The notes under the pieces: generated by a model
Told to the model about the DNA's origin: nothing
Seen by the model: only the letters and a program-made list of their open reading frames with translations
The model's database searches: none
Origin: a virus
Reading direction: 5' to 3' (one strand)
Length of the DNA: 27,164 nucleotides
IMG/VR virus record: IMGVR_UViG_3300043398_000059
Location: 1-27,164 of that record
Made by a program: the position numbers and the translations under genes
Shown: positions 2,313 to 27,164 of the stretch, piece by piece
Layout of the letters: each line of letters starts with the position of its first letter
How positions within the stretch are numbered: the first letter of the stretch is position 1

Positions 2313-3728
2313 ATGGCAGGCGTCCGTACAACCGCACCCGATTATGACCGGCTTATCTCGCTATGGGAAAGGGCGGCGGATATCGTCGCCGGGCAGGATC
2401 GGATACACGCTAAAAAGGAAACGTACCTGCCCAAGCTAACCGGCGAAAGCGATACGGATTACAAGGGCCGCTTGTCGCGTTCGGAGTTCTTTAACGCGAC
2501 ATGGCGCACCGCTGCGGGCCTCACCGGCATGGCCTTTCGCAAAGAGCCGGTTATCGATGCGCCCGCTGCTATCGAAGAGCACCTTGACGATATCGACCTT
2601 GCGGGCAGATCGCTCGACAACATAGCCAAGGCGTTGGTGATGGATAGCCTGATATTCGGGCTATACGGCTTGCTCGTTGACTTCCCCGCCGTCGACGCGG
2701 CGGTCTACCCTATCTCGCAGGCCGCCGCCGAATCACTAGGCTTGCGCCCCGCAGTCCACCGCTACGAGATGCGATCTATCATTAATTGGCGATATGCCCG
2801 CCGCGATAACCGCCGCCAGCTTGTCATGGCGGTGCTGGCGGAGGAAGCCGAACTGGAAGAGCAGGCGGACGAATACACGCACGAATGCGAAACCCGCTAC
2901 CGCGTACTCGACCTTGACCCGCGCGGTTTCTATCGCCAGCGGGTTTACCGTATCAACAAGCTCGGTGAGGATGAGCAGGTCGGAGCGGACTTTTACCCGC
3001 TTATGCGCGGCGCGCCCTTGTCGTACCTGCCCTTTAAGATATTCGGCGAAATGACCGAGCCGCCACTGATCGACCTTATCGACAAAAACATTGCGCACTA
3101 TCAGGTCAATTCGGACTATCGCCACGGCCTGCACCTGTCCGCGCTACCCACGGCGGTAGTCAGCGGGTACACCAAGGCCGAGGGTGAGCGCATGTATATC
3201 GGGAGCCGCGCCGCTTGGGTATTCCCGGACCCTACCGCAAAGGCCACGTTCCTAGAGTTTACCGGGGCGGGACTAGGCGCTATCGACACCGCGATATGCG
3301 CTATCGAAAAGCAAATGGCCGTGCTAGGTGCGCGGATGATCGCGGACGAAACTAAGCAGGTGGAAACCCTAGGCGCTACGGAAATCAAACGCGCGGGCGA
3401 AAATAGCATCCTCGCCGATATCGCTATTGCCGTATCCGAAAGCATCGAATGGGCGCTGGGCGTGTTCTGCGAATGGGTCGGCGTTACCGGCGAAATCAGC
3501 TACCAGATCAACCGCGAGTACAACCCCACCGGCTTGGATGCGCCGCGCCTGACCGCGCTGCTGGCAAACGTGCAGGCAGGCAAGATCAGCGAGCGCGAGT
3601 ATTTCGAGCTGTTGCAGCGGGCGGATATTATCGACAGCGGCAAGTCATACGAGGAGCACCAAGCAGAGATAGACATTGCCGCGCTACCCGCGCCCGCTTT
3701 GCCCGCGCCGGATATGCAAGCGGCATGA
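2313..3728 (+). CDS. Portal protein, DUF4055 family
   Basis: This 471-aa protein would form the dodecameric portal ring at one capsid vertex, through which DNA enters and to which the tail attaches. The N-terminal stretch LPKLTGESDTDYKGRLSRS followed by EFFNATWRTAAGLTGMAFRK is the hallmark of DUF4055 portals. The ATG at 2313 was chosen because GGAAGG lies about 8 bases upstream inside the end of terL; an in-frame TTG at 2292 would extend it by seven residues into terL. Charged and Ala/Pro-rich residues end the protein. The stop overlaps the next gene (ATGA). Order terL-portal-MuF is standard. Confidence 0.92.
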   Translation: MAGVRTTAPDYDRLISLWERAADIVAGQDRIHAKKETYLPKLTGESDTDYKGRLSRSEFFNATWRTAAGLTGMAFRKEPVIDAPAAIEEHLDDIDLAGRSLDNIAKALVMDSLIFGLYGLLVDFPAVDAAVYPISQAAAESLGLRPAVHRYEMRSIINWRYARRDNRRQLVMAVLAEEAELEEQADEYTHECETRYRVLDLDPRGFYRQRVYRINKLGEDEQVGADFYPLMRGAPLSYLPFKIFGEMTEPPLIDLIDKNIAHYQVNSDYRHGLHLSALPTAVVSGYTKAEGERMYIGSRAAWVFPDPTAKATFLEFTGAGLGAIDTAICAIEKQMAVLGARMIADETKQVETLGATEIKRAGENSILADIAIAVSESIEWALGVFCEWVGVTGEISYQINREYNPTGLDAPRLTALLANVQAGKISEREYFELLQRADIIDSGKSYEEHQAEIDIAALPAPALPAPDMQAA

Positions 3729-4931: not shown

Positions 4932-5585
4932 ATGCCACTCGATATGAAAGACCCGGACGTTATCGCATTCGTCGAAAAGGTGAATAAGGATGCGGAAGCC
5001 CGCATCGAAGCCATGGACGCCAAAGTTACAGAGGCGCTGGCCGAGGCAAAGAAAGCCAAGGCCGAGGCGCGCAAGCTGCAAGAGATTGATCCCGCCGAGG
5101 TGCAGCGCCTAGAGGACGCGCTGGAAAAGGCGCAGGGCGCGGCCAAGGAATCCGCCCGCTTGGCCAAGGTTAACCAAGAGGCGGCAGAAAAGGCCACCAA
5201 GGCGCTGGAAAGCGAAAGCAAGTTCAACCAGCGGCTGCTGTCCGAGAACGGGCTGACCAAGGTGCTATCCGAAAACGGCGTGACGGACCCGGCCTATCTT
5301 GCCGCCGCTATGGCCATGCATATGCCTAACCTGTCCATTGTGACCGAGGGCGACAACCGCAAGGCCATGTACGGCGACAAGGACGTGGCGACGGCGATCA
5401 AGGAATGGGCGGCGGGCGACATCGGCAAGAAATTCGTCAGCGCCCCGGTTAACGCGGGCGGCGGCGCGCACGGCGGCGGAGGCGCAAAGACCGGACAAAA
5501 GGACATAGACCGCGCCACTTGGGACGGCATGGGGCATATTGAAAAGGCGGCGCATATCAAGGCTGGCGGCGCGGTTACGGACTAG
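4932..5585 (+). CDS. Head scaffolding protein
   Basis: This 217-aa protein is predicted to organise coat subunits during procapsid assembly and then leave. Residues about 10-100 are an almost uninterrupted charged coiled coil rich in Ala, Glu and Lys. A small globular or helical part follows (about 100-165), then a Gly-rich linker (residues about 173-186) and a basic tail ending IKAGGAVTD that could contact coat protein. Position immediately before the major capsid gene and absence of catalytic motifs support the call. GGAAAGGAA lies a few bases upstream of the ATG. The gene is followed by a terminator. Confidence 0.82.
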   Translation: MPLDMKDPDVIAFVEKVNKDAEARIEAMDAKVTEALAEAKKAKAEARKLQEIDPAEVQRLEDALEKAQGAAKESARLAKVNQEAAEKATKALESESKFNQRLLSENGLTKVLSENGVTDPAYLAAAMAMHMPNLSIVTEGDNRKAMYGDKDVATAIKEWAAGDIGKKFVSAPVNAGGGAHGGGGAKTGQKDIDRATWDGMGHIEKAAHIKAGGAVTD

Positions 5586-5587
5586 GC

Positions 5588-5616
5588 TTGACAGTTATTT
5601 AGGCTTAGGCGATAAA
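5588..5616 (+). promoter_or_regulatory. Candidate sigma70-type promoter for capsid gene
   Basis: A perfect -35 box TTGACA (5588-5593) is followed after exactly 17 bases by GATAAA (5611-5616), which matches the -10 consensus at four of six positions. The -35 starts two bases after the scaffold stop. The predicted start near 5623 lies inside the left arm of the adjoining terminator. Confidence 0.6.
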
Positions 5617-5650
5617 GGCCCTGCTTTCGATAGGCAGGGCCTTTCGTTTT
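5614..5650 (+). terminator. Intrinsic terminator between scaffold and capsid genes
   Basis: A perfect 11-bp stem (AAAGGCCCTGC at 5614-5624 with GCAGGGCCTTT at 5634-5644) closes a 9-base loop and is followed by CGTTTT (5645-5650). It would end or attenuate transcripts arriving from the packaging and scaffold genes. Its left arm overlaps the -10 region of the candidate promoter. Confidence 0.88.
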
Positions 5651-5655
5651 GCTCC

Positions 5656-5685
5656 GTCAGGGACGGGACTGCATAGGTCAGGGAC
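5656..5685 (+). repeat. GTCAGGGAC direct repeat in capsid leader
   Basis: The 9-mer GTCAGGGAC occurs at 5656-5664 and again at 5677-5685, 21 bp apart from start to start, which is two helical turns. It lies in the untranslated leader between terminator and capsid gene. Protein binding or an RNA-level role is possible; nothing more can be said from sequence. Confidence 0.6.
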
Positions 5686-5730
5686 CATGTAGCGTTAGAC
5701 CACCCCCCTGTTTTATCGGAGCATTGTGCC

Positions 5731-6885
5731 ATGACCACCAACACTATCACCAATCTGATCCCGGACCTGTATAACGCGCTTGATGTTGTGTCGCGCGAAC
5801 TGGTCGGCTTTATTCCCGCCGTTAGCGCGGATATGACTTTCGAGCGCGCCGCAGTAGGGCAGACCGTCCGCAGTCCGGTTGCTCCCGCATCTACCGCCAG
5901 CGACATTGCGCCCGCCGTTACCCCGCCCGATGACGGCGAGCAGACAATCGGCAACGTGTCGATGACCATCACCAAGGCACGCCGCGTGCCGGTGCGCTGG
6001 AACGGCGAACAGTCGCTGGGCCTTGATAACAACGGACCGGGCCGCAGCGCTATCATGGTGCAGCAGTTCGCGCAGGCCATGCGTACGCTGACGAATGAAG
6101 TGGAAGGCGACCTCGCCGCGCTCCACATCTATGCCAGCCGCGCATATGGCACCGCAGGCACTACGCCTTTCGGCACCGCCGGGGATTTTAGCGACGCCGC
6201 AAACGTCCTGAAAATCCTGAAGGACAACGGCAACAGCGCCGATGCGCAGCTTGTCATTGATACCGCCGCCGGGGCCAAGCTGCTTGGCCTGCAATCGCGC
6301 TATGATATTGCCGGTGATACCACCATGCAGAACCAAGGCGTTATCATCAACAAAGCTGGCCTTATGATCCGCGAAAGCGCGGCTATCGTCACCAGCACCG
6401 CAGGCACGGGCGCTAGCGCCACGACCAACAACGCGGGCTATGCCGTGGGCGCTACCACCATCACGCTGGCATCCGCCGGAACCGGCACAATTCTTGCTGG
6501 CGACGTGATCACCTTTGCGGGCGACACCAACAAGTATCTGGTGGTGACCGGCGATAGCGATACGTCCAACGGCGGCTCGATTGTCATTGCCGCACCGGGC
6601 TTGCGCGTTGCAATGTCCGCCGCGACCAAGGCAATCACCGTAGTTGCCGCCGCCGCGCGTAACATGGCGTTCTGCCGCTCGGCTATCGCGCTTGCTACAC
6701 GCGCCCCGGCCCTGCCGGTTGAAGGCGATAGCGCCGCCGACCGCCAGACGATCACTGACCCGCGTTCGGGCCTCTCGTTTGAGGTCAGCATGTACAAGCA
6801 GTATCGTCAGGTCCAGTACGAGGTCGCGCTGGCTTGGGGCGTTAAGGCCGTCAAGCCGGAGCACATGGCCCTGATGCTCGGCTAA
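5731..6885 (+). CDS. Major capsid protein, P22 coat-like
   Basis: This 384-aa protein forms the HK97-fold shell. It resembles the P22 gp5 coat family: N-terminal NTITNLIPDLYNALDVVSRE, a central helix with NEVEGDLAALHIYASR, and a C-terminal QVQYEVALAWGVKAVKPEHM. Residues about 224-308 form a beta-rich Gly/Thr insertion (GYAVGATTITLASAGTGTIL and onward), in the place where P22 coat carries its I-domain. GGAG lies 9 bases before the ATG. The gene sits alone between a terminator-promoter element and a downstream hairpin, which fits high independent expression. Confidence 0.92.
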   Translation: MTTNTITNLIPDLYNALDVVSRELVGFIPAVSADMTFERAAVGQTVRSPVAPASTASDIAPAVTPPDDGEQTIGNVSMTITKARRVPVRWNGEQSLGLDNNGPGRSAIMVQQFAQAMRTLTNEVEGDLAALHIYASRAYGTAGTTPFGTAGDFSDAANVLKILKDNGNSADAQLVIDTAAGAKLLGLQSRYDIAGDTTMQNQGVIINKAGLMIRESAAIVTSTAGTGASATTNNAGYAVGATTITLASAGTGTILAGDVITFAGDTNKYLVVTGDSDTSNGGSIVIAAPGLRVAMSAATKAITVVAAAARNMAFCRSAIALATRAPALPVEGDSAADRQTITDPRSGLSFEVSMYKQYRQVQYEVALAWGVKAVKPEHMALMLG

Positions 6886-6889
6886 CAAG

Positions 6890-6935
6890 AGGTTCCGCCC
6901 TGCGTTACCCCGTCAATGCGCAGGGCGGACAACCT
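6890..6935 (+). promoter_or_regulatory. Strong hairpin after capsid gene, no T-tract
   Basis: CCGCCCTGCG (6895-6904) pairs perfectly with CGCAGGGCGG (6919-6928) around a 14-base loop. An outer AGGTT (6890-6894) can pair with AACCT (6931-6935) past a 2-base bulge. No T-run follows, so a simple intrinsic terminator is unlikely. It may protect the 3' end of abundant capsid mRNA, mark a processing site or act as a partial attenuator. Confidence 0.7.
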
Positions 6936-6951
6936 TCTAGGAGCTTAGGCT

Positions 6952-7131
6952 ATGTCCGATACGCAACGCACCGTTAAAGTCCGGCCTTGGGGCAAAGACC
7001 AAGGTGATTTTGTGGAAATCAATGCGGACGATTTCGACCCCGCTTTCCACCAAGCATTAGACCCGCTCGACCGCGACGGCGACGGGGAACCCGGCGGATC
7101 ACTCCCGCGCAAAAAGAAGGCTGTTAGTTAA
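6952..7131 (+). CDS. Small acidic protein after capsid gene
   Basis: This 59-aa protein starts at an ATG preceded by AGGAG and ends at a TAATG overlap with the connector gene, so its ends are well fixed. The start is MSDTQRTVKVRPWGKDQGDF; the second half holds LDRDGDGEPGGS, which looks like an EF-hand-type calcium loop of alternating Asp residues, and then a basic tail RKKKAVS. Small proteins with such a DxDGDG-PGGS stretch are common directly after capsid genes, but their role is not known to me. No decoration-protein fold is evident. Confidence 0.8.
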   Translation: MSDTQRTVKVRPWGKDQGDFVEINADDFDPAFHQALDPLDRDGDGEPGGSLPRKKKAVS

Positions 7132-7625
7132 TGTCGCTAGTTGTCGAGGATGGTACGGGCATGGCAAGCGCGGAGGCTTATTGCTCCGTCGCCGCTGCTG
7201 ATGCGCGTGCCACCGCCTTCGGCAACGCGACTTGGACAGGCACCACGGCGGTAAAGGAGGCCGCCCTACGCGCCGCAACGCGGTACATGGGGCAGGCATA
7301 TCGCAACCGCTGGGCCGGATATCGCCGCTTGCATGCACAGGCGCTGGATTGGCCTCGCTACGGCGTGGAGGTTGACGCCTTCCCCGTTGCCTATGACGCT
7401 ATCCCCGCCGATATTGTCAACGCTTGCGCTGACTTGGCCGTCAAGGCGCTGGCGGGCGACCTTGCGCCGGATCTGGAGCGGCGCGTCGTTCGCGAAAAGG
7501 TGGGGCCGCTAGAAACCGAATACGACCGATATGCCCCGGCGGTTACCACGTACCGCGCCACCGATATGGCGCTTGCGCCTTACCTGCAGGGTTCCGCCGC
7601 TATGGCGGTATTGGTGCGCACATGA
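7131..7625 (+). CDS. Head-tail connector, DnaT-like family
   Basis: This 164-aa protein is expected to form the ring below the portal. The start MSLVVEDGTGMASAEAYCSV, the helix KEAALRAATRYMGQAYRNRW with AQALDWPRYG, and the pattern IPADIVNACADLAVKALAG match a family often labelled DnaT-like ssDNA-binding protein. In phage late operons that family occupies the adaptor slot (gp15/gp6-type). The label reflects a weak old similarity, so a head-completion role is preferred here from position. It begins at a TAATG overlap and ends with an ATGA overlap. Confidence 0.8.
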   Translation: MSLVVEDGTGMASAEAYCSVAAADARATAFGNATWTGTTAVKEAALRAATRYMGQAYRNRWAGYRRLHAQALDWPRYGVEVDAFPVAYDAIPADIVNACADLAVKALAGDLAPDLERRVVREKVGPLETEYDRYAPAVTTYRATDMALAPYLQGSAAMAVLVRT

Positions 7626-7996
7626 CTATTGCGCAGCGCCTTTCCGCCGCCAACATGATCGCCGCCAAGGGGCAGGCGGTAACGATTACCCGCAACGCGG
7701 CGGGGACATATAACCCGGCAACCGGCGCGGCGGTGATCACCACCAGCGCACAAAGCGCCAGCGCGGTTGTGCTGCCCCTGTCCGCCTACCGCAAGGCAAC
7801 CGGCAACGTGGTTGAGGGCGACCAGCAGCTATTGCTAGCCGCTCTTGATGCTTCCGGCGCGGTGCTTACCGCCCCGCATGTTGACGACAATGTGACGCTG
7901 GCCAGCGGCGGCGTTGTAACGATCACCGCCGTTGACAAGATTGAACCCGCCGGGCTGGCGATCATCTATGATTGCGTTGTGCGGAGGGCCGCATAA
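7622..7996 (+). CDS. Head closure or head-tail adaptor protein
   Basis: This 124-aa beta-rich protein has alternating Thr/Val strands (QAVTITRNAAGTYNPATGAA, then VTLASGGVVTITAVDKIEPA) that suggest a small barrel of the head-closure type (SPP1 gp16 or lambda gpFII-like). No catalytic residue is apparent. Its place between the connector and the HK97 gp10-like protein is the usual slot for the closure ring. Both ends are coupled: ATGA with the preceding gene and TAATG with the following gene. The assignment rests mainly on order and fold impression. Confidence 0.68.
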   Translation: MTIAQRLSAANMIAAKGQAVTITRNAAGTYNPATGAAVITTSAQSASAVVLPLSAYRKATGNVVEGDQQLLLAALDASGAVLTAPHVDDNVTLASGGVVTITAVDKIEPAGLAIIYDCVVRRAA

Positions 7997-21417: not shown

Positions 21418-22127
21418 GCCTCCAGCTAAACCACTCCACCGACACGATCACGCCGAGCGGCGGGACGCTGGATATTGTCGGCGCGATGACATTATCAGGC
21501 GGCGCGCTGGTGGCCGCCGCATGGCCGGTGGGCGCGGTGTTTATCAGCGTTGTCTCCACCAACCCGGCAACGCTGCTCGGCTTTGGCACATGGGCCGCAT
21601 TCGGCGACGGCCGGGTGCTGGTGGGCCTGAACAGCGGTGATGCTGACTTTGACACGGTGGAAGAAACGGGCGGCGCAAAGACTGTTGCGGCGGCAGGAAC
21701 GAACAGCGGCGGGGCTGTCGCGGCACACGCGGCGCATACTCACTCCGTCACCAGCGACGTATCGGTCGCGGCGCACGCCAGCCACACGCACACCTATACC
21801 GATGTGCCTAACCATACCCACCCGCACAATATTCAGGGCGGCACCACGGGCAGCACCACCGGCACCAACGTCATGGGGTCAACGGCAACGGGCGGATCGT
21901 CCCGCGCCATGGCGATTGCTACCAGCAACCCGACGGGCGGCGTGGCAACCGGCACTACGGCAGGGCCGAGCGCCAGCTTGACCCATACTATGACAAACAA
22001 CGCGGTTACGTCCGGCAACCCTAGTGCCAGCCTGACCCATACCGTCACCGACCCCACCTTCACCGGCAGCGCCACCAGTGTCGTTCAGCCGTATATCGTC
22101 GTTTATATGTGGAAAAGGACCGCGTGA
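21414..22127 (+). CDS. Tail protein with gp10/gp12-like HxH C-terminal domain
   Basis: This 237-aa protein contains AAWPVGAVFISVVSTNPATL, LGFGTWAAFGDGRVLVGLNS and EETGGAKTV, a combination typical of the T4 gp10/gp12-like collar fold found on many short tail fibres. Its middle is rich in His-x-His motifs (AHTHS, SHTHT, NHTHPH), which in relatives bind metal on the trimer axis. It ends with VVQPYIVVYMWKRTA, the usual terminal strand. ATGA couples it to the large fibre. Two imperfect SASLTHT repeats occur in the C-terminal part. The likely role is a receptor-binding tip or a fibre cap. Confidence 0.85.
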   Translation: MSLQLNHSTDTITPSGGTLDIVGAMTLSGGALVAAAWPVGAVFISVVSTNPATLLGFGTWAAFGDGRVLVGLNSGDADFDTVEETGGAKTVAAAGTNSGGAVAAHAAHTHSVTSDVSVAAHASHTHTYTDVPNHTHPHNIQGGTTGSTTGTNVMGSTATGGSSRAMAIATSNPTGGVATGTTAGPSASLTHTMTNNAVTSGNPSASLTHTVTDPTFTGSATSVVQPYIVVYMWKRTA

Positions 22128-22454
22128 ATGAGGGGGCAAGAGAATAAACCAATCACCCATGAGGATATCCACGCAAGGCTGGCCTCGGGACAACAAAGGT
22201 TCGCGCATGTGGAAGATGTTTTAGCCAAGGTCGAAGCCGCGTTGTCGCAGGTGATCAAAGGTCAGGATGAATTCCGCGCCACGATCAAGCCGATTAGCGA
22301 TGATATTGCCGAGATCAAAAGTATGGTCAGCGTGTGGAAGGCTGCCGGGGTGCTTGGCAAGGCTGTAAAGTGGCTTAGCGGTCTCGCGGCGGGCCTTGTC
22401 GTGATTTGGGTGTTTGCCAAGGCAGGGGCCAAGGCTCTAGCAGGAGGTTTGTGA
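22128..22454 (+). CDS. Membrane-anchored XhlA-like lysis protein
   Basis: This 108-aa protein has a polar coiled-coil N-terminus (about residues 10-75, including HARLASGQQRFAHVEDVLAK) and one hydrophobic C-terminal segment (VKWLSGLAAGLVVIWVFA). This arrangement is like hemolysin XhlA-type proteins that accompany holins. It directly follows the last tail gene (stop TGA, then ATG) and precedes the holin-like gene, opening the lysis cassette. Which protein times lysis cannot be decided from sequence. Confidence 0.65.
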   Translation: MRGQENKPITHEDIHARLASGQQRFAHVEDVLAKVEAALSQVIKGQDEFRATIKPISDDIAEIKSMVSVWKAAGVLGKAVKWLSGLAAGLVVIWVFAKAGAKALAGGL

Positions 22455-22455
22455 A

Positions 22456-22638
22456 ATGGTGAAAGTCAAAGCGTTCCTCGCCCGCGAATGGGCGATGTTG
22501 TCCACCAAGTTCGGCACGGTGCTGGTGGCGATCAGCAGCACTGCGCCTTTGTACGCGCAATTTGACCAGCGCATTGCCTACGCGGGCGCGGCTGCGGGTG
22601 TGTTGCTGGTGCTCTATCGGGGGAAGACCAATGGTTAG
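22456..22638 (+). CDS. Small holin-like membrane protein
   Basis: This 60-aa protein has two moderately hydrophobic segments (FGTVLVAISSTAPLYA and RIAYAGAAAGVLLVLY) with a short polar turn between them and basic residues at both ends. A perfect AGGAGG lies 8 bases before the ATG. It overlaps the endolysin start by 8 bp. Size, topology and neighbours indicate the holin or pinholin that would trigger lysis; a SAR endolysin partner favours a small-lesion pinholin. No family was recognised with certainty. Confidence 0.68.
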   Translation: MVKVKAFLAREWAMLSTKFGTVLVAISSTAPLYAQFDQRIAYAGAAAGVLLVLYRGKTNG

Positions 22639-23140
22639 TGCAAGCGCCTTGTCTCCATCGCCGCCGCCGATCAAAAAGCCGCCATCTGGCAAACTGGTCG
22701 CGCTGATTGGCGGGCCTGCCGCCTTGCTCACCGTGGCTATAGTGGGCCAGTTTGAGGGCAAGCGGAATGATCCGTATTTTGACATCGTTCACGTCCAGAC
22801 CGTTTGCTACGGCGAAACCCGCGTCGAGATGCGCCGCTATAGCGATGCCGAATGCAAGGCCATGCTATCCGATGGGCTGGCAGACTTCGCCAAGCCGGTT
22901 CTGGACCGCAATCCGGAATTGCGCGGCCATGATAACCAGCTCGCGGCGGCAATCTCGCTTGCCTACAATATCGGCGGCACAAACTATCGCAAGTCCACCG
23001 TGGCGCGGCAATTCAGCGCGGGCCGGTGGAAAGATGCCTGCAATGCCTTCATGGCATGGTCAATGGCTGGCGGAAAGCGGGTGCAAGGTCTGGTCAATCG
23101 CCGCAACACTGAGCGGCAGTTGTGTTTGAAGGGGTTGTGA
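22631..23140 (+). CDS. SAR-type endolysin, GH24 lysozyme
   Basis: This 169-aa muramidase would cut peptidoglycan between MurNAc and GlcNAc. A short Pro-rich, basic N-terminus precedes a weakly hydrophobic helix with many Gly/Ala (LVALIGGPAALLTVAIVGQF, residues 22-41), typical of a signal-anchor-release sequence. The catalytic triad has T4 lysozyme spacing: E42, D51 and T57 (E to D 9, E to T 15). No Cys lies in the anchor, so activation would be by refolding rather than disulfide exchange; the catalytic Glu sits right after the anchor. The ATG at 22631 overlaps the holin; a longer frame upstream is a shadow. Confidence 0.93.
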   Translation: MVSASALSPSPPPIKKPPSGKLVALIGGPAALLTVAIVGQFEGKRNDPYFDIVHVQTVCYGETRVEMRRYSDAECKAMLSDGLADFAKPVLDRNPELRGHDNQLAAAISLAYNIGGTNYRKSTVARQFSAGRWKDACNAFMAWSMAGGKRVQGLVNRRNTERQLCLKGL

Positions 23141-23445
23141 TGACCGTCATATCCCTCGCCAAAGCTCGCGAAGAACGCCAACCGCATTGGGAAGGTGAGT
23201 GCATCTGCCTAGCTTGCAATCACACTTGGCGCGGTATCGGTCCTATAGGGACGATCAGCGGCCTCGATTGCCCGTCCTGTTCACTTCCGCAAGGCCACAC
23301 GCGATGGCCATTCGGCGGGCCTGATGATGCACTTATTCTGCAATGCAAGTGCGGCTCTGAGGCGATGACAGCCTACAAAAAGGGCGGCAAGTTCTGGGTC
23401 AAATGCATGGGCTGCGGAACCGATCAAACGGAGGTTTTTTTATGA
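23140..23445 (+). CDS. Double zinc-ribbon protein
   Basis: This 101-aa protein carries two likely zinc sites: C23/C26 with C44/C47 (CLAC and CPSC) and C69/C71 with C89/C92 (CKCG and CMGC). Each pair of knuckles is separated by 17 to 18 residues, as in rubredoxin-like zinc ribbons. No enzyme motif is present. It starts at a TGATG overlap with the endolysin and is therefore an accessory gene inserted in the lysis cassette. Similar small phage zinc-ribbon proteins exist; their role is unknown to me, and DNA, RNA or protein binding are all possible. Confidence 0.82.
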   Translation: MTVISLAKAREERQPHWEGECICLACNHTWRGIGPIGTISGLDCPSCSLPQGHTRWPFGGPDDALILQCKCGSEAMTAYKKGGKFWVKCMGCGTDQTEVFL

Positions 23446-23657
23446 CGGATGAACAGATCAAACACATGGCGGCGCGTTTTCTAATGTGGAAGCTGCCGAA
23501 GCCATTCCGGCCTGACAACTTTATCACATTCGTACCACCCGCTCCGTTGAACCCCGGCACCCCCTACGAAACCGATTTATGGCCGACTGGCACGAACCTT
23601 TGGGGTTACACCGAAGCCGAAGCGATGGTGCGCCATATGGTCGAGGGCCTGTGGTGA
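23442..23657 (+). CDS. Conserved-looking small phage protein
   Basis: This 71-aa protein begins MTDEQIKHMAARFLMWKLPK, continues with FRPDNFITFVPPAPLNPGTP and PTGTNLWGYTEA, and ends MVRHMVEGLW. I have seen this architecture (helix, Pro-rich turn, a PxGTNL motif, then AxAMVRHM[V/L]EGL) in small proteins from many alphaproteobacterial phages, but no function is known to me. GGAGG lies before the ATG, and the start overlaps the previous stop (ATGA). It overlaps the i-spanin start (GTGA). Confidence 0.82.
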   Translation: MTDEQIKHMAARFLMWKLPKPFRPDNFITFVPPAPLNPGTPYETDLWPTGTNLWGYTEAEAMVRHMVEGLW

Positions 23658-24205
23658 TCCTCCTCCGCTTACTCGGCTTTGCGTCATGGCTCAAAAACGC
23701 CGCTCTAAGCGTGTTCGGCTTGGTCCGGGCCTATCCCTTACAAGCGGCGCTTATCGTCGCTCTGGTGGCTGCTGGCTGGCAATGGCGGGGCAAGCAACAG
23801 GCTTTGGCGCAACTAGCCGCTATGGAAGCCGCGCAAGTCACCGCAACCGAAAACCAGATTGCCGTTAATCACGCGCCTGCCGCTAAGTCGCAGGCCATTG
23901 CCGAAAGGTCAAACGCCGATGCGCCTGAATACTATGCGAGGGGCCGCGCTGCTGGCCTTGCTTATGCCAATGCTCACCGCGTGCGGGCCAAAGCATGTAG
24001 CCCCGTCAATCCCGGTTTGCCCGGAACCGATAACCCTGCCCCGGTCAATGACAGATCCGGTCCAGATGCCGACATGGTTGCCCTATCCCGCACCGACTTC
24101 GACCTCCTCACCGGAAACAGCCTCCGCCTCGCAAAAGTGCAACAGGACGCGCAATCCCTGATCGATGCTGGTGTGGCTATTCCTGCGGTGGAGTTTGGGC
24201 GTTAG
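23654..24205 (+). CDS. Inner-membrane spanin (Rz-like)
   Basis: This 183-aa protein would be the inner-membrane half of the spanin that fuses inner and outer membranes in the last step of lysis. A cytoplasmic N-terminus is followed by a transmembrane helix at about residues 26-44 (AYPLQAALIVALVAAGWQW) and an Ala/Gln-rich periplasmic helix. A Pro-rich linker and a final helix make up the C-terminus. The start is taken as GTG 23654, overlapping the previous TGA; GTG 23651 is adjacent. A complete outer-membrane lipoprotein gene is nested in the +1 frame, which strongly supports the call. Confidence 0.85.
   Translation: MILLRLLGFASWLKNAALSVFGLVRAYPLQAALIVALVAAGWQWRGKQQALAQLAAMEAAQVTATENQIAVNHAPAAKSQAIAERSNADAPEYYARGRAAGLAYANAHRVRAKACSPVNPGLPGTDNPAPVNDRSGPDADMVALSRTDFDLLTGNSLRLAKVQQDAQSLIDAGVAIPAVEFGR
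23919..24161 (+). CDS. Outer-membrane spanin lipoprotein (Rz1-like), nested
   Basis: This 80-aa lipoprotein lies entirely inside the i-spanin gene in the +1 frame. A basic start (MRLNTMRG) leads to a hydrophobic signal (AALLALLMPMLTA) and a lipobox ending in LTA-C at residue 22. The mature protein of about 59 residues is rich in Pro and small polar residues, as expected for Rz1. AAAGG stands about 10 bases before the ATG at 23919. A second Met at residue 6 is an alternative start. The frame is open farther upstream, but that part lacks a signal. Confidence 0.88.
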   Translation: MRLNTMRGAALLALLMPMLTACGPKHVAPSIPVCPEPITLPRSMTDPVQMPTWLPYPAPTSTSSPETASASQKCNRTRNP

Positions 24206-24264
24206 CCCAAGCAAGGACAACAGCTATTGCTGCGTCGGCAATATACTCATCGACAAGCCGAAGA

Positions 24265-24294
24265 TTGACCGTTAAGATGCAAAGCATCTTAAAT
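24265..24294 (+). promoter_or_regulatory. Candidate promoter with palindromic operator in spacer
   Basis: TTGACC (24265-24270) and TTAAAT (24289-24294) are separated by 18 bases. The spacer is filled by a perfect palindrome (24272-24292) that also covers most of the -10. Predicted transcription would start near 24301 and read the membrane protein gene. Confidence 0.5.
24272..24292 (+). repeat. Perfect 9-bp inverted repeat, operator-like
   Basis: TTAAGATGC and GCATCTTAA form a perfect inverted repeat around AAA. It is not followed by a T-run, so it is not a standard terminator. Its position between the -35 and -10 boxes of a candidate promoter is that of a repressor operator. Confidence 0.75.
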
Positions 24295-24326
24295 CTGTCG
24301 AAAGACACAAAAGAGGCGGTAAAAAA

Positions 24327-24353
24327 ATGGCTTGGAGAGGCGCTGGGACGTGA
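24327..24353 (+). CDS. Possible 8-codon leader peptide
   Basis: An ATG after a run of A's encodes MAWRGAGT and stops at a TGA that overlaps the GTG start of the membrane protein (GTGA). A GAGG sequence lies about 10 bases upstream. It may only serve to deliver ribosomes to the GTG start. Evidence is limited to the overlap geometry. Confidence 0.35.
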   Translation: MAWRGAGT

Positions 24354-24820
24354 GCAAGACGCTGGCATGGGTGACGCTGATCGCACTGACAACAGTGCTG
24401 ATCTCAGTTAGCATTTGTGCGCCCTATTATCTCAGCGATGACGGAAACGCGTTCTTCAAAGGGTTCGTGACATGGAAACTGCTGTCGTTCCTCGGCGTAG
24501 TGGTCACAATCACGCTAGCCTCTGCTGATAACCTACACCTTGAGTTGAACAAGTTTGAGGAACGCTCGAACGAGTCCTTCATTGAGGCCCGCGCAGCGGT
24601 GCGTCAGTGCGCTTATGCTCTGCTCTTTCTTTTTGCGGCGGCTTTCGTCTTGGTGATTGTAAAGCCTACGCTTGAGGGGCAGCATTTGAATGCCAGCATT
24701 AATTCCGCTGCTATCCTGATTGTCCTATTCAATCTGGCAGTTCTTACCGACCTAACGATGGCCGTGTTCCGCATTCCAGCATTAAGGGAGGCAAATGAAA
24801 ACGCTCCGCCAAGCCCGTGA
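24350..24820 (+). CDS. Four-helix membrane protein, candidate moron
   Basis: This 156-aa protein is unrecognised. Four hydrophobic segments are visible: about residues 5-26 (LAWVTLIALTTVLISVSICA), 38-57 (WKLLSFLGVVVTITLA), 88-108 (CAYALLFLFAAAFVLVIV) and 122-142 (SAAILIVLFNLAVLTDLTMA), with an acidic, Asn-rich stretch between the second and third. GGAGAGG lies 9 bases before the GTG at 24350; a TTG at 24332 would add six residues. Base composition is visibly poorer in G+C than the phage late genes, and it has its own candidate promoter. This is the pattern of a late-acquired gene expressed from the prophage, for example in superinfection exclusion, but function is not shown. Confidence 0.72.
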   Translation: MSKTLAWVTLIALTTVLISVSICAPYYLSDDGNAFFKGFVTWKLLSFLGVVVTITLASADNLHLELNKFEERSNESFIEARAAVRQCAYALLFLFAAAFVLVIVKPTLEGQHLNASINSAAILIVLFNLAVLTDLTMAVFRIPALREANENAPPSP

Positions 24821-25061
24821 AGAGGGTAAGCTAGACCAGTTCGCCAAAGATCGCGAAGCTGATCCAGTCGGAGACGAGGCCGCGTTCAACGCGACTTTGG
24901 CGTCAATGGCCGGAAAGTCGAAAGCAGTTCCGGCAACATCGTCTCCGGACACCCCTTCAACTCAACCATTCTCACCTCCTGCGCGTAGGGCGGCCGCACG
25001 GCCATCAGACAGTCCACGTTCATATCCGGCCTCTTCTGCGGCAGTGAGTTGGTGCTGGTGA
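24795..25061 (+). CDS. Small charged protein with antisense-overlapping 3' end
   Basis: This 88-aa protein begins MKTLRQAREEGKLDQFAKDR, with FNATLASMAGKSKAVPATSS near residue 50. This N-terminal half looks like a small protein family frequent in sphingomonad genomes and phages, which usually ends soon after this point. Here the frame continues through a Pro/Ser/Ala-rich tail of about 35 residues that lies on the opposite strand of the next gene, probably a read-on after loss of the original stop. GGGAGG lies 5 bases upstream, and the start overlaps the membrane gene by 26 bp. Function is unknown. Confidence 0.7.
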   Translation: MKTLRQAREEGKLDQFAKDREADPVGDEAAFNATLASMAGKSKAVPATSSPDTPSTQPFSPPARRAAARPSDSPRSYPASSAAVSWCW

Positions 25062-25390
25062 CGCGAAGCCTGCGAATAGTGTTGCTTGGCAGCTTCGGTG
25101 TTCTCGTTGGCGAAGTCCTGCCGCATATCAGCAATCTCCATTTCAGCCTTTCGCAGCGCCATCACAAGGCCGCGTTCGGCACCGAGTTTGATCCTACAAG
25201 CCGGGTCACTCGACGGCTCAAAACCAAAGTGATCACGGGCACCGCCAATGGTCTTGAAGGTTTCGCCGCAGTGGAAACAAGTCCAACCGTGTTCGGGCTT
25301 TGGATAGGTGTCCGCATCTTCGCACCTGCGGGCTAGTTCTGTCATGGGGTCTGGCGCACCCCAATGCGGCGGCGTAAGATCATCCATCAT
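24962..25390 (-). CDS. Zinc-finger-like phage protein
   Basis: This 142-aa protein has a compact Cys/His site: C38 and C41 (CFHC), H54 (ARDHFG) and C65 (DPAC). The sequence GWTCFHCGETFKTIGGARDH is typical of a small phage protein family in which the site is followed by a helical part (KLGAERGLVMALRKAEMEIA) and a polar coiled coil. The ATG at 25390 overlaps the preceding stop (ATGA) and has GGAG 6 bases upstream; a longer frame to 25438 runs back into the previous gene. It is the last gene of the leftward operon and overlaps the + strand gene tail to tail. Confidence 0.83.
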   Translation of the reverse strand: MMDDLTPPHWGAPDPMTELARRCEDADTYPKPEHGWTCFHCGETFKTIGGARDHFGFEPSSDPACRIKLGAERGLVMALRKAEMEIADMRQDFANENTEAAKQHYSQASRHQHQLTAAEEAGYERGLSDGRAAALRAGGENG

Positions 25391-25611
25391 CCTTCTCCCA
25401 ATTCGGCCAGACAGGCGCGGGCTTTTTCGGCTTCCCATGCCTCACGGTAACGGTCGCGCGATCTTTGCATCTTCGCCAGCTTGGCTTCGGCTTCGGTGAG
25501 GGCGGCTGCGGCAGCCTTTAGGTCTTGGCCTGCTCCAACCATTTTCAGGCCGCAATCAGCATCCATTGCCCAAGCTATTAGCCGCTCGATCAGTGCTTGT
25601 GTGTCAGTCAT
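25387..25611 (-). CDS. Small coiled-coil phage protein
   Basis: This 74-aa protein starts MTDTQALIERLIAWAMDADC, has a short GLKMVGAGQDLKAAAAALTE turn and then a charged coiled coil (LAKMQRSRDRYREAWEAEKA). It has no catalytic motif. It overlaps the gene before it by 8 bp (ATGACTGA) and the gene after it by 4 bp, so it belongs to the same transcript. Such small coiled-coil proteins are common in early phage operons; function is unknown. Confidence 0.75.
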   Translation of the reverse strand: MTDTQALIERLIAWAMDADCGLKMVGAGQDLKAAAAALTEAEAKLAKMQRSRDRYREAWEAEKARACLAELGEG

Positions 25612-25858
25612 ACTCGTTCTCCAAAATTGCGCGGACAGCCAAGCCGGTTGGTGTAATCCGATGCAGGGCGGTCTTACCCATACCGGCCATGCCTTCCTTC
25701 ACCCCGTTGATCAGACGCTTGGCCTTGAGGTGTGACAGGCAAGACCATTGGCCGTAGTATTCAGGCTTAAAGTCCCGCTTAGTTGGGATGGCCAGCAACG
25801 CCTTCGCCTGTGCAGGACTAAGCCCCTTCGCAATCTCCCGTGGGTCTGCGCGCTTCAT
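25604..25858 (-). CDS. Small winged-helix-like protein
   Basis: This 84-aa basic protein has the helix pattern GLSPAQAKALLAI, then LSHLKAKRLINGVKEGMAGM and a short beta hairpin (ALHRITPTGLAVRAIL). The RITPTGLAVR end resembles the wing and last helix of MarR-type winged helices. It starts at an ATGA overlap with the preceding gene. A DNA-binding role is plausible, either as a host or phage regulator, but the family was not identified. Confidence 0.75.
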   Translation of the reverse strand: MKRADPREIAKGLSPAQAKALLAIPTKRDFKPEYYGQWSCLSHLKAKRLINGVKEGMAGMGKTALHRITPTGLAVRAILENEYD

Positions 25859-26082
25859 GGCTGCACCTTTTCATATCCAGCTACGCCCCACATGGTTTTG
25901 CTGTGATCGTGCGGGCGCGGGTCACGATACTTGTGGATTTTGCAGACCTGCTGCGGGAGCAAGATCGAAGGGTTAGCCTTAGGCAGCTTCTCAACGCAGA
26001 CGGGACAATCCACACCATACTTGGCGCGGGCTTCCCGCTTGGCATCGCGCAGTTCACGGCACTGGTCGCCATAGTCGCTCAT
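25855..26082 (-). CDS. Small Cys/His protein, possible zinc binding
   Basis: This 75-aa protein begins MSDYGDQCRELRDAKREARA and has CPVC, then a KLPKANPSILLPQQV spacer, then CKIHKYRDPR. The two Cys of CPVC with the later Cys and His of CKIH are spaced like a small zinc finger. It resembles a conserved small protein of sphingomonad phages. It is ATGA-coupled at both ends. Function is unknown. Confidence 0.78.
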   Translation of the reverse strand: MSDYGDQCRELRDAKREARAKYGVDCPVCVEKLPKANPSILLPQQVCKIHKYRDPRPHDHSKTMWGVAGYEKVQP

Positions 26083-26339
26083 GGCTGCACCTTGCCAGCG
26101 AATAGCGGGGTTTCTGTCCAGCCTTGTTCGACAAGTTCAGGGTGACGCTCGGCGAATGGTTCCGCAAATCTATCGTGCTTCCGGTAAAGCCAACTATCCG
26201 GCTCACCCTGCACGATCTGGCAACCGGCTGCTTCGAGGGCGCGGAGGATGGACTTTGCGCCATCACGCGGTCGCCAGTCCATTTCCAGACTGTCGCTGAT
26301 CGCTTCCTCTAGGAAGTCCTCCAGTTCATCGCGCTCCAT
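26079..26339 (-). CDS. Small acidic phage protein
   Basis: This 86-aa protein starts MERDELEDFLEEAISDSLEM and continues with DWRPRDGAKSILRALEAAGC and a C-terminal part rich in aromatic and charged residues (RKHDRFAEPFAERHPELVEQ). It looks helical and soluble. The ATG at 26339 overlaps the stop of the small membrane peptide (TGATG). A longer frame up to 26444 is the shadow of that gene in another frame. No family was recognised. Confidence 0.72.
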   Translation of the reverse strand: MERDELEDFLEEAISDSLEMDWRPRDGAKSILRALEAAGCQIVQGEPDSWLYRKHDRFAEPFAERHPELVEQGWTETPLFAGKVQP

Positions 26340-26464
26340 CAGTAGGGCCTCCAGTTCCAGAGCGCGACAATGAACAGAACGCCTAGTGCCGCCAGCAGTA
26401 GAACGCCAAGAGCGGCCACTCCACCAATCGCGTAAAGAAGCCATGTTGGTATCGTGATGCTCAT
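26339..26464 (-). CDS. 41-aa single-span membrane peptide
   Basis: This very short gene encodes MSITIPTWLLYAIGGVAALG, then VLLLAALGVLFIVALWNWRP and Y, that is a membrane helix occupying nearly the whole protein with Trp and basic residues at the C-terminus. GAGGAG stands about 9 bases before the ATG, and the stop overlaps the next gene as TGATG. Overlap geometry, ribosome site and a coherent hydrophobic pattern support it as real. Small single-span proteins of this type occur in early phage regions; possible roles include holin, antiholin or membrane modulator, none shown. Confidence 0.72.
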   Translation of the reverse strand: MSITIPTWLLYAIGGVAALGVLLLAALGVLFIVALWNWRPY

Positions 26465-26469
26465 TCCGG

Positions 26470-26673
26470 TTACTCCTCTAAAATGTAGGCTTTGGCGCTA
26501 ACATCGTATTTCACGTGCGCTGGCTTGGTTGCCAGAAATGCGGCGATGTCGTTACTTGCCTGCGGGGTTGAAACATCAAACTCGCGGATAATATCAGCAC
26601 GGCGTATCTGCCCGAATTGACGCAGAGTAGCGGCGATGAACTCCTGCCGACGATCAGCGAACCAGCGGCTCAT
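26470..26673 (-). CDS. Small winged-helix DNA-binding protein
   Basis: This 67-aa protein starts MSRWFADRRQEFIAATLRQF and has the recognition region RRADIIREFDVSTPQASNDI, followed by a wing-like end (KPAHVKYDVSAKAYILEE). This is close to the DeoR-type helix-turn-helix and is recognisable as a small phage and prophage protein found in many alphaproteobacteria. It starts at an ATGA overlap with the 15-aa ORF. It may repress or modulate the phage's own operon. Confidence 0.85.
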   Translation of the reverse strand: MSRWFADRRQEFIAATLRQFGQIRRADIIREFDVSTPQASNDIAAFLATKPAHVKYDVSAKAYILEE

Positions 26674-26717
26674 GCCATCAGTTCCACAATCTCATCGCGG
26701 GTCATTGGGGTGGTCAT
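26670..26717 (-). CDS. 15-aa bridging mini-ORF
   Basis: The ORF MTTPMTRDEIVELMA starts at an ATGA overlap with the gene before it and ends at an ATGA overlap with the gene after it. It fills what would otherwise be a 40-bp gap with coding sequence. It may be a remnant of a larger gene kept for translational coupling, or a functional micropeptide. Confidence 0.5.
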   Translation of the reverse strand: MTTPMTRDEIVELMA

Positions 26718-26899
26718 GGCTTTGGCCTTTCATCTGCATGGGGAATTAGATTGGCGACGAACCACGTTCCAAACGACCCACGCATATCGCGGTGACCGTC
26801 CAGAATATCGACCAGTTGCGCCACTTGATCAGGGTTTAGGGCCATTTTGGTTTTGCCGCCGTGTGGCGACACAATGCTGACAGCTACATTAGCGCCCAT
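26714..26899 (-). CDS. Small phage protein of unknown function
   Basis: This 61-aa protein reads MGANVAVSIVSPHGGKTKMA at the start, LNPDQVAQLVDILDGHRDMR in the middle and ends with a short aromatic part (SFGTWFVANL). No family was recognised. GGAG lies about 8 bases before the ATG at 26899, which overlaps the preceding stop (TGATG); an alternative GTG at 26902 is equally coupled. It is part of the leftward operon. Confidence 0.7.
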   Translation of the reverse strand: MGANVAVSIVSPHGGKTKMALNPDQVAQLVDILDGHRDMRGSFGTWFVANLIPHADERPKP

Positions 26900-27164
26900 C
26901 ACCCAATCTCCTTTTGCAGTTCCATGCCGCGCTTGAGGGAAAGCGTGATGATCTTAAACTCGGTGCAGCCATCGTGTTGGCCTTCAAGGCATCTGCGTTC
27001 GTAGGAGGTGCCGGGAGCTTTCATCGCAAGCAGCTTTCGCGCTCCATTTTGGCAGTTTGCCAGATGCTCCATCGCCACTTGAACGGGGCCGGGAATAGGC
27101 CGCAGTCCCCGCTCCCAATCGCTTATCGTCTGGTGGCCAGACTTGCCCATGCGCAGGGCGGTGG
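26899..27164 (-). CDS. Helix-turn-helix protein, cut by window edge
   Basis: The gene enters from the right edge, so its N-terminus is missing; the visible part is 87 codons plus stop. The first visible residues TALRMGKSGHQTISDWERGL match the recognition helix of an Xre-like helix-turn-helix, followed by RPIPGPVQVAMEHLA, the usual end of the domain in small phage regulators. The rest (CQNGARKLLAMKAPGTSYER, then a Cys pair and a basic tail) is unassigned. The Met at 27150 is probably internal because the frame is open with domain-like sequence upstream. Likely a DNA-binding regulator. Confidence 0.78.
   Translation of the reverse strand, partial: TALRMGKSGHQTISDWERGLRPIPGPVQVAMEHLANCQNGARKLLAMKAPGTSYERRCLEGQHDGCTEFKIITLSLKRGMELQKEIG

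Follow-up and report, generated by a model that had tools for sequence, protein, structure and literature searches.

A probable relic of an IS1595-type transporter insertion sequence behind the lysis genes of a phage, with one intact gene of a RexAB-like cargo pair

Introduction

What is an A+T-richer stretch encoding a four-helix membrane protein doing immediately behind the spanin genes of a phage? The question arises from an IMG/VR record of 27,164 bases, analyzed here over its whole length and referred to as the window. The record holds phage late genes, and its terminase is 71% identical to that of Caulobacter phage DMCA. A sequence-only reading of the region had proposed an autonomous, operator-controlled moron that might represent a new exclusion system. 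The analysis described below indicates instead that the block spanning positions 24206..24950 is most likely a decayed transporter IS of the IS1595 type, whose cargo had been a RexAB-like gene pair and in which a single gene, here called B, is still intact. Transporter ISs are insertion sequences with passenger genes (Siguier et al. 2009, as cited in PMC3129680).

Results

A foreign block between the spanins and a convergent phage gene

The block lies between the stop codon of the i-spanin gene (23654..24205, plus strand) and a convergent phage gene (24962-25438, minus strand). The i-spanin gene and the o-spanin-like lipoprotein gene embedded in it (23934-24161, plus strand) have weak PHROG spanin matches and belong to the upstream neighborhood rather than to the unit itself. 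Judged by where the homologies of the genes A, B, C and of a transposase end, the left edge falls at about 24199-24265 and the right edge at about 24950-24961. With 52.1% G+C, compared with a window mean of 59.6%, it ranks with the most A+T-rich parts of the window, only 0.5% of 745-bp segments being as low. The difference in composition that had been noticed earlier is thus real, and foreign codon usage of B was considered and rejected, the GC3 of B alone being no outlier (z = -1.1). Given this value and the hydrophobic codons of the gene, part of the G+C deficit of the block is due to those codons. Relatives elsewhere are clearly A+T-rich (43.6% G+C against flanks of 67.3%, and 52.7% against flanks of 62.5%). 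An origin of the unit as foreign, A+T-richer DNA inserted after the spanin gene is supported. As to origin, the moron proposal is right, the late genes being followed by foreign DNA of a cargo-like kind.

Several features of the surrounding phage DNA were recorded in passing. The endolysin gene (22562-23140) encodes an N-terminal membrane segment and is likely of the SAR type, and a holin is not evident in the lysis cassette of the window. The lysis region also encodes a small cysteine-rich, zinc-ribbon-like protein (23122-23445) with a 41% identical relative (L017:1015-1332) that sits between the head genes of another phage contig. At the far end, a partial minus-strand ORF with an HTH-like motif (GHQTISDWERG; 26899-27162) is cut by the end of the record and could encode a regulator.

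Gene B belongs to an unnamed family of four-helix membrane proteins

Gene B (24350..24820, plus strand) starts with GTG, is preceded by a Shine-Dalgarno-like GGAGAGG at 24334-24340, and is open over its full length without stop or frameshift. Its 156-aa product has four hydrophobic segments (residues 5-23, 39-57, 86-104 and 122-140). A structural model (pLDDT 82), made from an alignment that included loci retrieved in the genome searches, confirms four helices and nothing beyond that, and none of the conclusions drawn here relies on it; the model made from the single sequence was poor (pLDDT 57). The description of B as a four-helix membrane protein with a GTG start accordingly holds. Comparison of the model with the PDB was uninformative, as it returned many long helical bundles (Z up to 13.6), most of them unrelated proteins that are soluble in water. 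No BFVD match fell below E 0.1; a match to a 165-aa protein of phage Sbash had an E-value of 0.59.

When IMG/VR, GTDB contigs, phages and plasmids were scanned with single sequences, no relatives of B emerged. They were found through a six-frame search of alphaproteobacterial genomes and later through profiles. Among 385 genomes the six-frame search gave one strong relative, in genome G052 (64% identity over 75 residues, the match lying at a contig end), and 398 genomes from the family of a Novosphingobium MAG added three further full-length B genes. Identity to the full-length B proteins of three Sphingomonadaceae genomes is 47, 38 and 29%. Profiles of B and A then detected complete pairs on four IMG/VR contigs, and the profile of A added one more pair, in genome G576. 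B is thus a member of an unnamed family. All eight residues that are invariant in this family are kept in the window, and between window B and G052 B dS is saturated while dN is 0.31.

In its relatives, B is always preceded by an intact gene A

The relatives comprise nine loci (L106, L113, L114, L115, L120, L121, L122, L126 and L127) from five bacterial genomes and four prophage contigs. In all nine, an intact, co-directional gene A lies directly upstream of B and overlaps or abuts it, the overlap usually being 4-14 nt. A encodes a soluble protein of ~272-280 aa and B a four-helix membrane protein of ~165 aa. Gene A had no credible match to any Pfam, PADLOC or PHROG family, and a profile search of PDB sequences with A returned nothing. 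A match to A in genome G087 was rejected as a chance hit inside an unrelated long frame. As read from translations, the pair adjoins terminase and other head genes in L122 and L127, whereas its neighbors are portal-like and methylase genes in L126 and include genes for an exonuclease and an HTH protein in L121. In such surroundings A-B behaves like a mobile cassette of prophages. It is rare outside the family, having been detected in one genome among 250 that were sampled from the class as a whole.

The same survey bears on the idea that the lysis cassette uses B as its holin. The gene is near the endolysin and spanin genes and encodes several membrane helices, as a holin might. However, its relatives reside in bacterial chromosomes and prophages away from lysis genes and always in the company of A, B matched no holin family, and the endolysin carries a membrane segment of its own at the N-terminus. 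We regard a holin function as very improbable.

The stretch upstream of B is a degenerate end of gene A

While a soluble gene of ~280 aa stands directly before the four-transmembrane gene in every one of the nine relative loci, the window holds a remnant in its place. A degenerate 3' end of gene A occupies 24199..24357 on the plus strand, corresponding to about the last 50 codons, of which the last 30 are best kept, and ending in ALGRE. Its frame is open through the start of B and first meets a stop at 24411. Upstream of B this frame reads ALAQARTTAIAASAIYSSTSRRLTVKMQSILNLSKDTKEAVKKWLGEALGRE, compared with AYAEAGNATVTSKAMNGETFSSTRRTKTIKLANLSDAQGDRIKIMEWLLRALGRE at the end of the G052 gene A. 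The Smith-Waterman score against the C-terminus of G052 A was 67, whereas shuffled sequences averaged 24.4 (sd 4.8) and 0 of 3000 scored as high; the other two frames gave background scores against G052 A, as did the remnant itself when compared with the A protein of G456. In a tblastn search with A over the whole window, the remnant was not significant by itself and an unrelated match was equally strong. The identification thus relies on position, register and the shared junction rather than on tblastn alone: the remnant is collinear with G052 in the same register up to the start of B, GGCGCT-GGACGTGAG is common to the window and G052 at the A/B junction, and window B starts at the same junction where B overlaps A in the relatives.

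Promoter-like site, palindrome and leader overlap the remnant

The proposed regulatory elements exist as sequences. A promoter-like TTGACC-18-TTAAAT is found on the plus strand (TTGACC at 24265, TTAAAT at 24289-24294), a palindrome with perfect 9-bp arms and a 3-nt loop, TTAAGATGC-AAA-GCATCTTAA, lies at 24272-24292, and an 8-codon leader ORF (plus strand) runs from ATG 24327 to the TGA at 24351-24353, thereby overlapping GTG 24350 of B. All three lie within what is left of the 3' end of A. The leader is judged to result from reading this remnant out of frame, the homologous stretch of G052 encoding the C-terminus of A in a different frame. A terminator role for the palindrome was rejected, as there is no T-run on either strand.

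If the unit were an autonomous, repressible moron, a phage repressor would bind the palindrome, and transcription from the promoter, on derepression or in the lysogen, would yield B, which would exclude superinfecting phages by itself. Palindrome and promoter-like hexamers are indeed present, a perfect 9-bp repeat is locally unusual (frequency 0.009, or 0.9%, for the 250-bp stretch in question), and B is an intact gene whose ribosome-binding site is good. On the other hand, over the whole window the number of perfect 9-bp inverted repeats with loops of up to 12 nt is at the level of chance (4, compared with a mean of 2.5 and a range of 0-6 in 30 dinucleotide shuffles), and so is the number of sigma-70-like sites in 22000-27164 (3 observed, 2.6 expected in shuffled DNA). 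The TTGACC/TTAAAT site itself fails the sigma-70 scan because TTAAAT has no A at position 2, the key A of a -10 element. Moreover, a search of the record for further copies of the palindrome found it to be single-copy, alignment shows that it is absent from the nearest homologous DNA, that of G052, and the stretch that contains it overlaps degraded coding sequence. The promoter-like site is therefore judged incidental. The elements described in the sequence-only reading stand, but a promoter or operator role for them is not supported. The partner gene A, which a RexAB-like mechanism would require, is also lost. An autonomous, operator-controlled transcription unit is not supported, and we consider it unlikely.

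Gene C and a transposase tail match the end of an IS1595-type element

Downstream of B, the 88-aa ORF that had been described as a small soluble protein (gene C, 24795..25061, plus strand) exists as a reading frame, but it is a composite. Codons 1-52 (to 24950) alone are homologous to an accessory ORF of IS1595-type elements, and the remainder is an out-of-frame run into phage DNA, mostly antisense to the phage gene at 24962-25438. Residues 1-52 are 54% identical to the product of a small ORF of genome G693 (locus L114), the start of which lies within the final part of B. C-like small ORFs with 38-65% identity were present in 9 of 150 Sphingomonadaceae genomes, and in eight of the nine they convergently overlap the end of an IS1595-family transposase gene or its remnant. 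The window shows the same arrangement: antisense to C, at 24904..24948 on the minus strand, lies the tail (about the last 15 codons) of an ISXO2-like transposase of the IS1595 family, PETMLPELLSTFRPL, which agrees with the C-terminus of the transposase of L114 at 12 of 15 residues. The L114 protein matches PF12762 (E 1e-35) as well as PF12760; of such an ISXO2-like transposase the window retains these ~15 codons only. The homologies of C and of the transposase both stop near 24950, before the end of the gene at 24962, and this places the right junction there. The order B, C, transposase tail and the orientations match those of an intact element.

Intact elements carry exchangeable cargo

That element, in locus L114 of G693, is 2430 bp long (5234-7663) and contains the transposase, C, B and A. 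It has 26-bp terminal inverted repeats that are 88% complementary, and a perfect 8-bp target duplication, CAAAACAC, is found on both flanks. The repeat core, TATCCCCTT-N2-CATACGT, recurs in elements of L128, L131, L132 and L135, which are flanked by perfect 8-bp duplications (AATATTTA, GAAAAATT, CTCTGCTT and TAGGATTT, respectively) and hold other passenger genes between the repeats where L114 has A-B. The cargo of three of them (L128:507-2554, L131:327-2546 and L135:617-2856) includes proteins, one from each, that match the PADLOC candidate anti-phage gene PDC-S42 with E-values of 4e-11, 4e-9 and 2e-6. PDC-S42 shares the element type with A and B, but it is a different protein family and is not found in the window. 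Two further observations were made at such loci. The L131 element interrupts a GmrSD-type (DUF262), defence-associated restriction-type gene (L131:1-249 and 2451-3119, E 2e-24). In L130, a 281-aa, weakly DUF6731-like protein is encoded upstream of C beside an IS1595 transposase (145-987); it is not certain cargo because no left repeat was found.

Within the window, no terminal inverted repeat was detected when up to 8 mismatches of 25 were allowed. With repeats and target duplication gone and the order B, C, transposase tail preserved, the block was filed as a relic rather than as a complete IS1595 member. The relatives resemble IS1595-family transporter ISs in having an ISXO2-like transposase with a zinc ribbon, ~25-bp repeats, 8-bp duplications and passengers. 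They differ in what they carry, either a RexAB-like pair or genes that PADLOC lists as defence candidates, and in that a constant gene C overlaps the transposase end; the copy in the window differs further by its lack of both ends and of the transposase. The literature searched contained no published link between IS1595 and defence cargo.

The A-B pair has the layout of RexAB

A-B resembles RexAB of lambda, gp30/gp31 of Sbash and RexABpp of Pseudomonas putida in consisting of a soluble gene (~280 aa in lambda) followed by an adjacent gene for a four-helix membrane protein, and in being carried by prophages. In the RexAB-type system of P. putida, growth is stopped by RexB as the effector, with RexA as its trigger (PMC12894663), and the same trigger/effector model has been proposed for Mycobacterium phage Sbash (PMC6426596); both systems have the layout of A-B. 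By analogy, B would be the RexB-like effector half. The likeness stops short of sequence membership. Neither A nor B matched a RexA or RexB family in PHROG, and when both families were compared by hhalign with alignments of lambda-type RexA and RexB, the probabilities stayed below 1%. In addition, A is missing from the window, where no repressor-linked position was seen either. Because membership fails, we infer from the layout that the pair may work like RexAB and do not claim that it is RexAB.

Discussion

Taken together, the data are best explained by a decayed IS1595 transporter IS that had carried a RexAB-like pair, has lost the trigger gene and probably forms no working exclusion system. 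We hold this to be the probable explanation. An IS1595-family transporter IS would have landed behind the lysis genes, either directly or by recombination with another element, with soluble A (~272-280 aa) and four-helix B (~165 aa) as its original cargo, followed by the accessory ORF C and the convergent transposase. Both element ends, almost the entire transposase gene and the whole of A except the last ~30-50 codons would since have been lost, leaving B intact. The anatomy of the block, its homologies and the inverted repeats and target duplications of its relatives are direct observations. Points against this explanation are the lack of sequence similarity between A or B and lambda RexA or RexB, the shortness of the A remnant, its background score against the A protein of G456, and the equally strong unrelated tblastn match. 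Window B is closer to B of G052, where the pair is not on a recognizable IS1595 element, than to that of G693, which implies that the pair entered such elements repeatedly or lost them.

The complete pair would most likely act in a RexAB-like manner, with A sensing an infection product and triggering B, and triggered B damaging the membrane and stopping growth of the infected cell. The suggestion that the unit may be a new exclusion system is partly supported: B does belong to a two-gene family resembling a phage-exclusion pair, but its trigger partner is gone in the window. Since A has been lost, B is most likely a relic that is either silent or, through late-operon read-through, weakly expressed. 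As an exclusion system the unit in the window has probably lost its function.

Some residual function of B may nevertheless persist, given that the gene has no stop or frameshift. In its strongest form, this would mean that B has been kept as a stand-alone working protein, a late membrane-active or superinfection factor that would be expressed by late-operon read-through and would act independently of A. The full-length open frame with its conserved invariant residues, the dS and dN values relative to G052, and the co-directional position behind the lysis genes all fit such a scenario. Yet A accompanies B at every other locus and is the trigger in the studied RexAB-type systems (PMC12894663), and the selection signal may date from a time before A was lost. 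A stand-alone role for B is thus rather doubtful, and we favor the relic interpretation.

The wider and more interesting result is that transporter ISs of the IS1595 type combine a constant backbone with candidate phage-defence cargo. A broader proposal, which we put forward tentatively and as something short of probable, is that A-B represents a new RexAB-like abortive-infection family, without sequence relation to the known ones, and that the IS1595 transporter ISs of Sphingomonadaceae are a small, dedicated shuttle for anti-phage genes such as A-B and PDC-S42 that also seeds phages. If this is true, phage morons can begin as transposon cargo. The locus described here shows a route by which a phage moron can arise from a cargo-carrying insertion sequence. 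It also points to an unnamed two-gene family of RexAB layout that occurs in sphingomonads and in prophages of these bacteria. Should the cargo genes indeed act in defence, a ~2-2.5-kb transposon with a constant backbone of C and transposase and exchangeable cargo would be among the smallest vehicles for defence genes, and the repeats of the element would provide a direct handle for finding more such genes.
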